DNA from: Haloglomus litoreum | Lineage (GTDB): Archaea; Halobacteriota; Halobacteria; Halobacteriales; Haloarculaceae | DNA: 64,000 nt | NCBI RefSeq assembly: GCF_029338515.1 | Contig: NZ_CP119988.1 | Coordinates: 4,526,001-4,590,000 of the forward strand | Direction: 5' to 3' | Shown here: piece by piece, positions 17,755 through 22,367 of the stretch | Position numbering within the stretch: the first letter of the stretch is position 1 | How the letters are laid out: every line of letters begins with the position of its first letter | The notes under the pieces: model-generated | What the model was told of the DNA's origin: nothing | Database searches by the model: none | The model's input: the letters and a program-made list of their open reading frames with translations, nothing else | Program-made: the position numbers and the translations under genes

Positions 17755-17817
17755 ATGACGTGGAAATACTGCGGAAACGCGGACGAAACGGAAGCAAAGT
17801 TCGAGGTGAGTGAGTGA
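17755..17817 (+). CDS. Leader micro-ORF 1, overlapping the amt1 start
   Basis: ATG at 17755 opens a 20-codon frame encoding MTWKYCGNADETEAKFEVSE. Its TGA (17815-17817) overlaps the amt1 ATG (17817-17819). The TATA box at 17707-17717 predicts a transcript starting about 17737, so this ORF would be the first one read. The amt2 gene has a counterpart of 21 codons with Cys also at position 6, a similar acidic Thr/Glu tail and the same TGATG overlap. I infer translational coupling or a regulatory leader peptide; no function is known. Confidence 0.5.
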   Translation: MTWKYCGNADETEAKFEVSE

Positions 17818-19229
17818 TGATCGAACCGATTCTGCTCCAGGGTGACGTGACCGCCATCGCGAACAGCATCAACGCGGTGTGGGTGCTGATGGTGTGTTTC
17901 CTGATCTTCTTCATGCAGCCCGGGTTCGCGCTGCTGGAGGCCGGGCAGGTACGCGCGAAGAACGCGGGCAACGTCGTGATGAAGAACATGACCGACTGGT
18001 CGATGGGCGTACTGGTGTTCTTCCTCGCGGGAGCCGGGGTGTACGCCATGGCGGGGATGCTCGGCTCACCGAGCGTCGAGTTCTCCATCTCCGGCGCGTT
18101 CAGCCACATCAACGACCCGACGGCGTGGATCGGCTGGCTGTTCGGCGCCGTCTTCGCGATGACCGCGGCGACCATCGTCTCCGGGGCCATCGCCGAGCGG
18201 ATGAAGTTCGGCGCGTACGTGGCCTACGCGTTCGTGCTGGTCGCGATACTCTACCCCATCGTCGCCGGGTCGACCTGGGGCGGCACGGGGCTGCTCTCCT
18301 CGACCGGCTTCCTGGGTGAGGCACTCGGCGTCGGCTACAAGGACTTCGCCGGCGCGACCGTCGTCCACGCGATGGGCGGCATCGCCGGGCTGACCGCCGC
18401 TTACATGGTCGGCCCGCGCAAGGGCCGCTTCGACGAGAACGGTGACGCACAGCCCATCCCCGGGCACTCCGTCCTGTTCGCGGTCATCGGGACGCTCATC
18501 CTCGCATTCGGCTGGTACGCGTTCAACGTCGGCACCCAGGCGACCGTCCTCACGACGGACGGCTCGTTCAACGGCGCCGCGCTGGGCCGCGTCGCGCTGA
18601 ACACCACCCTCGCGATGGGCGCGGGCATGGTGTTCTCCACCCTGACCACGACGCTCTGGGAGGGCAAGCCGGACCCGCTGTTCGGCGCCAACGGCCTCCT
18701 GGCCGGCCTGGTCGCCATCACCGGCGCGTGTGCCCACGTCAGCTGGTGGGGCGCACTCGTCATCGGTATCATCGGCGGCATCCAGACCCCGTTCGTCTAC
18801 CGCTGGGTCGTGGACTCGCTGAAGATCGACGACGTCTGTGGCGTCTTCGCGGTCCACGGGTCGGCCGGCTTCATCGGGACCATCCTCATCCCGTTCTTCG
18901 ACGTGGCCGGCTTCTCGACCAACCAGCTCATCATGCAGGTCGCCGGCTCGGCGTTCATCGGGACGTTCACCGTCCTCGGTACGATGGTGACGCTCCTGGT
19001 CGTCGACGCGATCATCGGGCTGCGCGTCTCCGAGGAGGAGGAGGTCACGGGGCTGGACCCCTCCGAGCACGGCATGCACGCCTACCCCGAGTTCACGGAC
19101 GACTCCGGCCCCGAGCGCGCGGTCGCCGACGGCGGCAGCGTGCCCGGCAGCACGGAGGTCCGCACGGACGGGGGGTCGGTCGAGGATACACCCACCCCGG
19201 CCATCGTGGAGGTGACCGACGATGAGTGA
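17817..19229 (+). CDS. Ammonium transporter Amt1
   Basis: 470 residues with about eleven membrane helices. The signature [19 protein letters not shown] is in helix 1. [16 protein letters not shown] and [12 protein letters not shown] supply the two conserved pore histidines, and the Asp before the first His is present. The cytoplasmic C-tail is long, acidic and Gly-rich ([14 protein letters not shown] onward). Trimeric Amt conducts ammonium and is blocked by GlnK when nitrogen is ample. The glnK1 ATG overlaps the last codons by 8 nt. ATG at 17817 is preferred over GTG at 17814 because the equivalent GTGATG occurs at amt2. Confidence 0.95.
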
Positions 19230-19587
19230 CGCCCCGAACGACGGCGGCGTGAAGCTGGTGACGGCGTTCATCCGCCCGGATATGCTGGGTGAGGTGAAGG
19301 CCGCCCTCGTGGACGTCGGGGCCCCCTCCATCACCGTGACGAACGTCTCCGGTCGCGGGAGCCAGCCCGCGAAGAAGGGCCAGTGGCGCGGTGAGGAGTA
19401 CACCGTCGACCTGCACTCGAAGGTGAAGGTCGAGTGCTACGTGGCGGACATCCCCGCCGACGAGGTCGCCGAGGCCATCGTCGAGGCCGCCAAGACCGGC
19501 GAGCCCGGCGACGGCAAGGTGTTCGTCTCGCCCGTCGAGGAGGCCTACCAGATCCGGACCGGGGTGACCGGACAGGACGCGGTGTAG
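19222..19587 (+). CDS. glnK: PII signal protein GlnK1
   Basis: 121 residues. After a short polar lead comes the PII fold: [19 protein letters not shown], the T-loop [21 protein letters not shown] with Tyr at the usual modification position, [20 protein letters not shown], and [22 protein letters not shown] for ATP and 2-oxoglutarate binding. GlnK trimers plug Amt trimers, reporting energy and nitrogen status. The ATG lies inside the end of amt1, so translation is probably coupled. The PII domain fused to Amt2 is a close paralogue (nearly identical T-loop). Confidence 0.96.
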
Positions 19588-19589
19588 GT

Positions 19590-20075
19590 GTGGCCGACAC
19601 CGACTCCGCCGGCGGCGGGTCGGAGGAGCCGGACGACCCAGAGGACGAACCGGCCGTCGACGCGACGCGGGGCGGCCCCCACGACCGAGCCACCGTCACC
19701 GCGGCCGACGCCGCGACCGCCGACCAGCTGGCCGCGCTGGAGGGAGCGGGGGCCGTCGAGGGCTACGTTCCGCTCGTCGACTACGACGCGCTCGGGCTCC
19801 GGACGGCCCTCCTCCGGATCAACACCCACCACGGCAACGGGACCGCCGTCGCCGACGACCTCCGCGACGGGCCCGCCGTCGCGGTCTACCAGACCTGCGG
19901 GCAGTTCGACGTGCTGGCGGTCTGTCGGTTCCCCACGGCGGCCGCGCTCGAGCGGACCGCGACCCAACTCGCGAGCGACCCTCGCGTCCGGGCCCACCGG
20001 GTCGCACTCGCCCGGCACGCCGTCGTCGAGGACGGGCCACTAGAGGCCCTGGCCGGCGACCGTGACGGGGACTGA
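19590..20075 (+). CDS. Lrp/AsnC-type ligand-binding domain protein with eroded HTH
   Basis: 161 residues from GTG at 19590, two nt after the glnK1 stop, so probably the third gene of the operon. The first 30 residues are acidic and disordered. TADQLAALEGAGAVEGYVPLVDYDALG looks like the end of an Lrp winged helix, but the recognition helix upstream is missing or degenerate. Residues 70-150 form the RAM fold (LLRINTHHGNGTAVADDL, VYQTCGQFDVLAVCRF). It may sense an amino acid such as glutamine and act through a DNA-binding partner. The gene could also be a decaying regulator. Confidence 0.7.
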   Translation: MADTDSAGGGSEEPDDPEDEPAVDATRGGPHDRATVTAADAATADQLAALEGAGAVEGYVPLVDYDALGLRTALLRINTHHGNGTAVADDLRDGPAVAVYQTCGQFDVLAVCRFPTAAALERTATQLASDPRVRAHRVALARHAVVEDGPLEALAGDRDGD

Positions 20076-20288
20076 CCGGGGCCCGATCCCCGCCGGTGCG
20101 CCACACCGGCGCACCGCCCGACCCCGACCCGAAACCGGCACGACGCCTCGAACAGTACCGATTCACGGACGAGACGGCTTCTCGGACAGCGCCGCTTCCC
20201 GAACAGCACCAGCCACGGGCGGACTGCCAGCGCGAGGGGCCTGCCAGCGTGGGGGAGCGCCTGTCGACGACGCCACGGCGCGCTGGAG

Positions 20289-20520
20289 TGGACGAACGTA
20301 GCGCGCGAGGGGCGAAACCCGGCCGAACGGAGTATTCTCCACCGTACGTTCGTCCAGCGAACCGGCGATGGACGCCCGATAGCTGGACGAATTACAGCCT
20401 TATATCGATATTATTCTACCCCAAATCGGACGGTCGTCTGAATATACGCGAAAAAGTTGACACTGTGAACTCGAACGTTTATGTAGTAGTATCTGCTGAC
20501 GGCTTGACGTGAGATACACC
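20289..20520 (+). promoter_or_regulatory. amt2 control region: inverted GGACGAACGT sites and TATA box
   Basis: TGGACGAACGTA at 20289-20300 and its exact inverse TACGTTCGTCCA at 20345-20356 form a clear inverted pair with a 44-nt spacer. GACGGTCGTC (20429-20438) is a third related site. The TATA-like GTTTATGTAGT (20477-20487) follows. The distance from third site to promoter matches that of amt1 exactly. GAGATACAC precedes the small ORF at 20521. The 508 nt between 20076 and 20583 hold no other gene. Operator function is inferred from repetition and spacing. Confidence 0.6.
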
Positions 20521-20586
20521 ATGAACGTTGCAGAATGCGAGCTCGATATGGACGGTCGTACGGAATCTGAGGTGACCCGTTCGTGA
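20521..20586 (+). CDS. Leader micro-ORF 2, overlapping the amt2 start
   Basis: ATG at 20521 opens a 21-codon frame starting [18 protein letters not shown] and ending TGA at 20584-20586, which overlaps the transporter ATG at 20586. Cys6 and the acidic/Thr-Glu tail parallel leader 1, and the promoter-to-ORF distance is nearly the same (about 41 against 44 nt). The predicted transcript begins about 14 nt upstream, so this is the first frame read. It is probably a regulatory or coupling peptide; this is inference from the paired occurrence. Confidence 0.5.
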
Positions 20587-22367
20587 TGGGTGTCCTGCAG
20601 TCCGGGGCCGACATCGCGACGCTGGTCGAGGGGGTCAACCTGCTGTGGGTGCTGACGGTGACCTTCCTCATCTTCTTCATGCACGCCGGCTTCGCGATGC
20701 TGGAGGCCGGGCAGGTCCGCTCGAAGAACGTCGCCAACCAGCTGACGAAGAACATGCTCACCTGGTCCATCGGCGTCGTCGCCTTCTTCCTCGTCGGCGC
20801 GGGGGTCGCGAGCGTGACCGGGCAGCTGACCGGGCCGAACGCGCTCGTCCCGGGCGACCTGATCGCGACGTGGAGTTCGGACTCGGCCGGCTGGGTCAGC
20901 TGGCTGTTCGGCGCCGTCTTCGCGATGACCGCGGCGACCATCGTCAGCGGGGCGGTGGCCGGTCGCGCGAAGCTCCGCGCGTACGTCACGTACACCGTCC
21001 TGCTCGCGGCGGTCATCTACCCCGTCGTCGTCGGGTTCACCTGGGCCGGCCAGGGGCTGCTCACCAGCGACGGACTCATCGGGACCGGCTTCCAGGACTT
21101 CGCGGGCGGGGTCATCGTCCACGGCATGGGCGGCGTCGCCGGCCTCACCGCGGCCTGGATCATCGGGCCACGCATCGACCGCTACAACAGTGACGGCTCC
21201 GTCAACGTCATCCCCGGCCACTCGCTGACGTTCGCGGTGCTGGGCACCCTCATCCTCGCATTCGGCTGGTACGGCTTCAACGTCGGGACCGCCGCGTCGG
21301 TGTTCAACGCCGCGGATGCCAGCGAGGGCATCCTCTCGCTGGGCGCGTTCGACTACGTCGGCCGCGTGGCGCTGACGACCACGCTGGGCATGGCCGCGGG
21401 CGCCATCGGCGCCGGCGGCATGGCGCTGTACAAGACCGGCAAGGTCGACACGCTGTACGTCGCCAACGGGATGCTCGCGGGCCTCGTGGGCATCACCTCC
21501 ATCACCGACAACATCCTCTGGGTGGGTGCGCTCGCGGTCGGCCTCATCGCCGGCGCGCAGCTCCCCATCGTCTTCGGCTTCGTCGAGAAGCGGCTCAAGA
21601 TCGACGACGTCTGTGCGGTCTTCCCGGTCCACGGCAGCGCCGGCCTGCTCGGCGCCCTGCTGTTCCCGTTCGTCGCCACCCAGACCTGGGCGTCCGGCTT
21701 CGACGCCGCGTTCTTCGTCGACGCGCTGATCGGCCAGATCGCCCTCGTGGTGGTCATCACGGCGTGGACGGTCGCGGCCACCGCGGCGGTCTTCGGCGCG
21801 CTGAAGGCCGCCGGCGAGGCCCGCGTCTCCCGCGAGCACGAACTCGAGGGCCTGGACGTCTCCGAACACGGCGTCGACACCTACCCCGAGTTCGGCGCGC
21901 CCGAGACCGCCACGGACGGCGGTATCGTCGGAGGCGATACCTCGTCGGAGCTCCGCTCCGACGGCGGCTACGTCGAGAACGAGAAGGGCATCGTCCGCCC
22001 GGACGGCGGCGTCGCCAACGACGGCGGCATCAAGATGGTCACTGCCTACATCCGCCCGGACGCACTCTCGAACGTGAAGAAGGCACTCGTCGAGGTCGGC
22101 GCGCCCTCCATCACGGTGACGAACGTCTCCGGTCGGGGCTCCCAGCCCGCGAAGAAGGGCCAGTGGCGCGGCGAGGAGTACACCGTCGACCTCCACCAGA
22201 AGGTGAAGGTCGAGTGCGTCGTCGCGGACGTGCCCGCCGACGACGTGGCCGAGGCCATCGCGGACGCCGCCAAGACCGGCGAACCCGGCGACGGCAAGGT
22301 GTTCGTACTGCCCGTCGAGTCCGCCCACCAGATCCGCACGGGCAAGACCGGCCGCGAGGCCGTGTAG
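20586..22367 (+). CDS. Ammonium transporter fused to a PII (GlnK) domain
   Basis: 593 residues in one unbroken frame. Residues 1-408 are an Amt channel: [19 protein letters not shown], pore histidines in [13 protein letters not shown] (179) and VFPVHGSAG (349). Residues 409-480 are an acidic Gly-rich linker resembling the Amt1 tail ([14 protein letters not shown]). Residues 481-593 are a complete PII protein: [17 protein letters not shown]-loop [19 protein letters not shown] with Tyr532, and [22 protein letters not shown]. Fusion of two trimeric partners would fix their ratio at 3:3 and tether the plug to its channel. It differs from operon 1 by loss of the stop/start between the genes. Confidence 0.95.

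Follow-up and report, generated by a model that had tools for sequence, protein, structure and literature searches.

An ammonium transporter and a PII protein joined in one chain: a fusion common across Halobacteria and probably a self-gated transporter

PII proteins are ordinarily free signalling hubs that visit many targets. In a 64,000-nucleotide stretch of the Haloglomus litoreum genome (contig NZ_CP119988.1, positions 4,526,001 to 4,590,000; hereafter the window), one gene reads as an ammonium transporter (Amt) continued into a PII protein. What does a PII do when it is a covalent part of one transporter? Our reading is that the product is probably a self-gating ammonium transporter in a single chain, of a type found widely in Halobacteria. 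Coordinates are window positions, and features lie on the forward (+) strand unless noted.

The fused gene (20586..22367; 593 aa) is a single ORF that runs from an ATG at 20586 to a TAG at 22365-22367 with no stop between its two domains, and it has open-frame orthologs across Halobacteria. Pfam assigns residues 20-433 to Ammonium_transp (PF00909; E 3e-91, 306.6 bits versus a cut-off of 23.2), covering the whole profile (1-399 of 399), and residues 483-587 to P-II (PF00543; E 6e-25, 88 bits versus 25), covering positions 2-102 of 102. With both pore histidines and the T-loop tyrosine in place, the initial annotation was right to describe one polypeptide holding a full Amt and a complete PII, and the fixed ratio that it proposed follows from the fusion as 1:1 per chain. 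A sequencing or assembly error joining two genes has nothing in its favour. No stop or frameshift separates the domains, many genomes that were sequenced independently, complete as well as draft, share the open frame, and Haloglomus halophilum, a close relative, also has the fused gene, with a linker 15 residues shorter. These independent genomes refute an artefact or frameshift, to which we give practically no credence.

A search with the whole protein returned matches in 374 of 391 Halobacteria-class genomes, and most of the best matches listed were one open frame spanning residues ~8-593. Genera with the fused gene include Haloglomus, Halorarius, Natrinema, Halobaculum, Halorussus, Haladaptatus and Natronomonas; many genomes have a single full-length match, so that the fused gene is apparently their only Amt of its type. 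For a census of PII, PF00543 was run against 82 evenly drawn Halobacteria genomes, and a hit-bearing open frame of at least 540 aa was scored as fused. PII was found in 75 genomes and in none of the other 7. A fused Amt-PII frame was present in 48 of the 82 genomes and only free PII in 27. The fusion is thus no oddity of its genome but common across Halobacteria, and looking for Ammonium_transp plus P-II across haloarchaea, which the initial annotation had suggested, revealed the same architecture class-wide. At one locus (L144, genome G029) the fused gene closes a 917-codon open frame with a putative 346-codon N-terminal extension.

The fused PII was the only PII found in 45 of the 48 fused genomes. 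Fused and free PII occur together in three genomes of the sample. The window's genome is among them, and it has one fused PII, one free PII beside an unfused amt and one lone PII. This last gene (G000:C1:2904424-2904774, - strand) had no amt gene matched nearby. For most fused haloarchaea, we put at about even chances that the whole PII system is tied to the membrane, in which case either soluble targets have been given up or all signalling, including the control of glutamine synthetase, passes via the transporter. A full-text literature search, with subscription journals mostly outside its reach, found no study of haloarchaeal Amt-PII fusion. Such fusion is known as a kind; within the searchable literature, neither its spread over the class nor its standing as the sole PII appears to have been described.

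Is the Amt part still a transporter? The Amt domain (residues 20-433; 20643..21884), delimited by Pfam, residue conservation, an AF2 model and Foldseek matches to Amt structures, has 11 TM helices and contains the twin pore histidines H179 (21120-21122) and H349 (21630-21632). Both, together with the Phe gate and the periplasmic Asp/Trp sites (F112, F231, W153 and D171; the F107, F215, W148 and D160 equivalents), are invariant in 57 of 57 fused homologs. In the AF2 model (monomer, mean pLDDT 77), the Amt helices and the PII core are folded, the last membrane helix ends at ~408, residues 424-474 are disordered (pLDDT < 50) and the T-loop is flexible at 513-536. Foldseek hits were Amt structures for the Amt part, among them AmtB from its complex with GlnK (2NUU/2NS1), and GlnK2 of Haloferax mediterranei for the PII part (79% identity to 4OZN). 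Because the fused Amt scored slightly below the NCBIfam amt cut-off (TIGR00836, 322.1 versus 343.3 bits; the unfused paralog in the window lies above it with 350.5 bits), ammonium transport is a prediction that we make from its conserved sequence.

By fold and sequence, the closest solved Amt structures are the sensors Ks-Amt5 (6EU6) and Sd-Amt1 (8QJ3/8QPF). Like the fused protein, Ks-Amt5 (an Amt with a histidine kinase; PMC5764959) and Sd-Amt1 (8QJ3) combine a trimeric Amt with a C-terminal cytoplasmic signalling domain; unlike it, they carry a domain other than PII, and Ks-Amt5 does not transport. Fusions of Amt with other domains had been noted earlier (PMC5764959). The fused protein might likewise be a sensor, whose Amt would report bound or passing ammonium from the outside inwards to the tethered PII, which would then act on other targets such as glutamine synthetase; the loss of transport in Ks-Amt5 (PMC5764959) and the 45 fused genomes that have no other PII for other targets are in keeping with this. 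We nevertheless think it unlikely, since the pore residues (twin His, Phe gate, D160) are invariant, loss of transport would leave many single-match genomes without any Amt of that type, and the nearness to the sensors is modest (31-32% identity). Pfam found PII as the only C-terminal domain and no signalling output domain of the Ks-Amt5/Sd-Amt1 type.

The PII part (residues 482-593; 22029..22364), placed by Pfam and with Haloferax mediterranei GlnK2 (4OZJ/4OZN) as its closest solved structure, aligns with E. coli GlnK without gaps, so that its residue numbers are the GlnK numbers plus 481. Its T-loop (residues 518-536; 22137..22193), recognized by alignment, invariance and pLDDT < 50, holds Q520, R528 and Y532 (Q39, R47 and Y51 of GlnK). 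The fused PII has the equivalents of Q39, K58, G87, K90 and R103 (ATP/2-oxoglutarate) as well as those of R47 and Y51 in the T-loop; the positions of Q39, R47, K58, E62, G87, K90 and R103 are invariant in 91 of 91 fused PIIs and in 54 free ones. The R101 position is Gln, as it is in other haloarchaeal PIIs. The design does not depend on the T-loop tyrosine, which is Phe in 2 of the 91 fused PIIs.

This conservation bears on a further idea of the initial annotation, that the fusion could make blocking of the pore permanent. Covalent attachment does raise the local PII concentration; however, the ATP/2-oxoglutarate residues and the T-loop Arg, which should have decayed had release been lost, are invariant in all 91 fused PIIs, the pore residues are invariant too, the linker is long and flexible, and a pore that is always shut would have no selected function. 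A permanently blocked transporter is accordingly very improbable. Reversible, metabolite-controlled gating in cis by a tethered plug would be the best explanation of these sequences, since transporter and regulator both keep all their working parts.

Between the two domains lies first the conserved cytoplasmic C-terminal region of the Amt (residues 410-437; 21813..21896), with G422, H428 and Y433 invariant in 57 of 57 fused homologs, which we take to be the counterpart of the part of E. coli AmtB that contacts GlnK (2NUU/2NS1). The Asp/Gly-rich linker follows (residues 438-481; 21897..22028; 22% Gly, 16% Asp), falling largely in the stretch with pLDDT < 50 and varying in length among homologs. 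A linker of about 72 residues had been proposed; this is the spacing from the last membrane helix to PII, but its first ~28 residues are the conserved Amt region and the linker proper has ~44. The resemblance of the end of the linker to a GlnK N-terminus (NDGG followed by I/V-K) was confirmed. In 101 haloarchaeal fused loci, some from organisms entered twice by two routes, the linker, measured from the Amt C-terminal region to PII, is 26-72 aa long (median 34; 49 in the window by the same measure), and the frame is always kept. Retention of the frame despite variable linker length is the strongest sequence evidence for selection on a single chain. An R-x-D-G-G motif (residues 471-475; 21996..22010) is nearly fixed in the alignment (R in 56 of 57, D and GG in 57 of 57). 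As R-x-D-G-G/S, it occurs in 99 of the 101 fused linkers and 43 of 57 unfused Amt tails, and in 5 of 407 C-terminal tails of neighbouring genes. Such a short conserved element in a disordered tail suggests a candidate binding site, and its putative partner is perhaps PII itself.

A disordered linker could also serve to release PII, either by proteolysis or through an internal start at the M484 ATG (22035), the fusion then merely ensuring equal amounts. A single PII that also serves soluble targets would gain from this, and Flag-tagged Haloferax AmtB1 was mostly seen as a cleaved C-terminal fragment (PMC3831643). That fragment, however, was judged to begin before the last TM helix and hence to be membrane-bound (PMC3831643), M484 is Leu in 19 of 57 homologs, and no Shine-Dalgarno-like stretch is evident in the sequence ahead of it. 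Release of PII is thus also improbable, a little more so than the sensor. With Met and Leu mixed among homologs, an internal start at M484 was rejected as the source of a conserved second product.

How, then, would a self-gated transporter work? The Amt part would form the usual trimeric pore, and each subunit would bear its own PII on a flexible linker of ~44 residues that follows an intact Amt C-terminal region. The three tethered PII domains would assemble into a normal PII trimer beneath the Amt trimer. Under nitrogen abundance, marked by low 2-oxoglutarate, each of the three T-loops would plug a pore mouth with R528 (R47 in E. coli), and uptake would stop; with high 2-oxoglutarate and ATP, the T-loops would refold and the PII trimer would undock, staying leashed and ready to dock again. 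The gate would apparently be kept on a leash instead of floating free. The architecture, the conserved frame, the intact residues, the class-wide occurrence and the sole-PII status in most fused genomes are seen directly; from these we infer the gating cycle, the trimer geometry and an advantage in salt.

The fusion would exchange free diffusion for a high local PII concentration, roughly millimolar if the linker is treated as a random coil. This would help where the affinity between Amt and GlnK is weak or salt-sensitive, as it might be in a multi-molar-salt cytoplasm. Precedents exist for both: Methanosarcina AmtB1 bound GlnK1 at 7.7 uM when the bridging protein sP36 was present, and in its absence no binding could be detected (PMC10714827); dissociation of E. 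coli AmtB3-GlnK3 at high salt is mentioned in PMC4009401, which cites Durand and Merrick. By analogy, tethering may offset such binding. Fusion is not obligatory at high salt, since unfused pairs work in Haloferax, itself high-salt, where GlnK binds AmtB1 in membranes following ammonium shock (PMC3831643). Repeated gain or loss of the fused state in the Amt tree also speaks against the self-gating reading.

The window itself contains an unfused pair upstream: an amt of 470 aa (17817..19229), identified by Pfam and placed by the Amt tree, and a free glnK (19222..19587; Pfam) whose first 8 nt overlap the end of amt. The gene after glnK (~19593-20076, +) has a weak likeness to an Lrp/AsnC ligand-binding domain (20.1 bits, with the cut-off at 25). 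The pair had been noted, correctly, as an unfused amt-glnK, with a distance of 1.4 kb to the fused gene; the distance is 1.36 kb from the start of glnK and 1.0 kb from its end. It had further been treated as the unfused state of the same gene. In an Amt tree of 144 rows, two haloarchaeal clades were found, with the window's unfused amt in clade 1 and the fused Amt in clade 2, and the two Amts are only ~50% identical. Since they belong to different clades, the upstream pair is a paralog, and the tree rules it out as the pre-fusion state.

In clade 2, 89 fused rows are interspersed with 21 unfused ones, and across the whole tree the well-supported branches require no fewer than 7 changes between fused and unfused states; on this phylogeny, fusion or fission among Amt-PII genes is a repeated event. 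Clade 1 contains a separate Amt-PII fusion (loci L132/L133, genomes G003 and G012). The linkers of these two are 56-63 aa of repeated RTDGG units. Loss of a stop and start had been offered as the origin of the fusion. In the clade-2 pairs of Haloferax and Halogeometricum, Amt and GlnK are in the same frame, split by a stop, one codon and an ATG, so that a one-codon change divides split from fused there. In the other unfused pairs of both clades, glnK and amt are in different frames and overlap at the amt stop by 4 or 8 nt, so either arrangement may be ancestral and the change may have gone either way.

The two PIIs of the window had been called near-identical; they are 83% identical (96/116), and at four-fold silent sites they differ nearly as much as the Amts (0.34 versus 0.38). 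By that measure the pair is old, and recent gene conversion between the window's two PII copies is not supported. The PII tree was poorly resolved (114 columns), and its use was limited to the pattern of similarity within genomes. In two-copy genomes the Amts are 52-57% identical and the PIIs 79-95%, with few exceptions at 71-74%. In Haloferax, silent sites differ by 0.10-0.15 between PII copies versus 0.29-0.34 between Amts, which points to gene conversion. L052, L057, L060, L069, L123 and other loci show PII copies within one genome that resemble each other much more closely than the Amts beside them do, a pattern that would fit gene conversion of PII. AmtB1 of Haloferax appears to bind both GlnK1 and GlnK2 (Pedro-Roig et al., PMC3831643), which makes mixed trimers or cross-talk plausible where both kinds of PII coexist.

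E. coli GlnK is uridylylated by GlnD. E. coli AmtB-GlnK (2NUU, 2NS1) shares with the fused protein the two partners, the T-loop Arg and Tyr positions and the Amt C-terminal region, but consists of two separate proteins that bind and part. The nearest unfused counterparts are haloarchaeal: in Haloferax mediterranei (AmtB1-GlnK1/AmtB2-GlnK2; PMC3831643), one in-frame stop and a separate start split genes of the amt2-glnK2 type, and the Haloferax clade-2 Amt with its PII is 72% identical to the fused protein. Fusions in Firmicutes (Ruminococcus albus WP_013483901.1, Enterococcus raffinosus WP_222227351.1 and Monoglobus WP_320691151.1) have the same domain order in one ORF, but they are 35-37% identical overall and have other linkers. 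All three fall outside both haloarchaeal clades, and by this placement they are independent of the haloarchaeal fusions. AmtB-GlnK is also listed as a "prefusion" complex, with STRING genomic evidence of fusion in some species (Marsh et al. 2013, PMC4009401); the entry belongs to a bulk data set, and the accessible part of the text gives no species, function or haloarchaeal distribution.

Where PII is built into a single transporter, as in most of the fused genomes sampled, one can test which of its functions are dispensable. Fused and split pairs occur in nature (Natrinema or Halobaculum versus Haloferax) and make it possible to measure how tethering affects gating speed, salt tolerance and nitrogen signalling, and for structural studies of Amt with PII the fused protein is a ready-made single chain.

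Both amt genes of the window are also preceded by a short ORF. One (20521..20586), seen in the sequence and in a class-wide enrichment, has a TGA stop that overlaps the ATG of the fused gene; the other, MTWKYCGNADETEAKFEVSE (17755..17817), has a stop that overlaps the ATG of the unfused amt. An ATG ORF of 10-45 codons with its end at +1, +4 or +7 relative to the start of amt was found for 110 of 146 distinct haloarchaeal amt genes, versus 14.6 expected in shuffled upstream DNA, and under one common rule for 33 of 43 amt genes versus 11 of 148 other genes. A G-rich Shine-Dalgarno-like stretch lies 8-12 nt ahead of the amt start. Substitutions in the upstream ORFs are about equal over the three codon positions (473/447/497), with no conservation of the peptide by this measure, so the peptide is seemingly of no importance. 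The arrangement suggests translational coupling of amt to the short ORF by termination and re-initiation; the literature search found no report on short ORFs overlapping haloarchaeal amt starts. Neither Rfam (no match) nor RNAalifold (0.0 on 90 leaders) gave a conserved RNA structure in the amt leader. Downstream of a TATA-like box, haloarchaeal amt leaders (e.g. 20478-20590 in the window) retain two sequence motifs ahead of amt, CGTGAT and TGGACGAnCGT.
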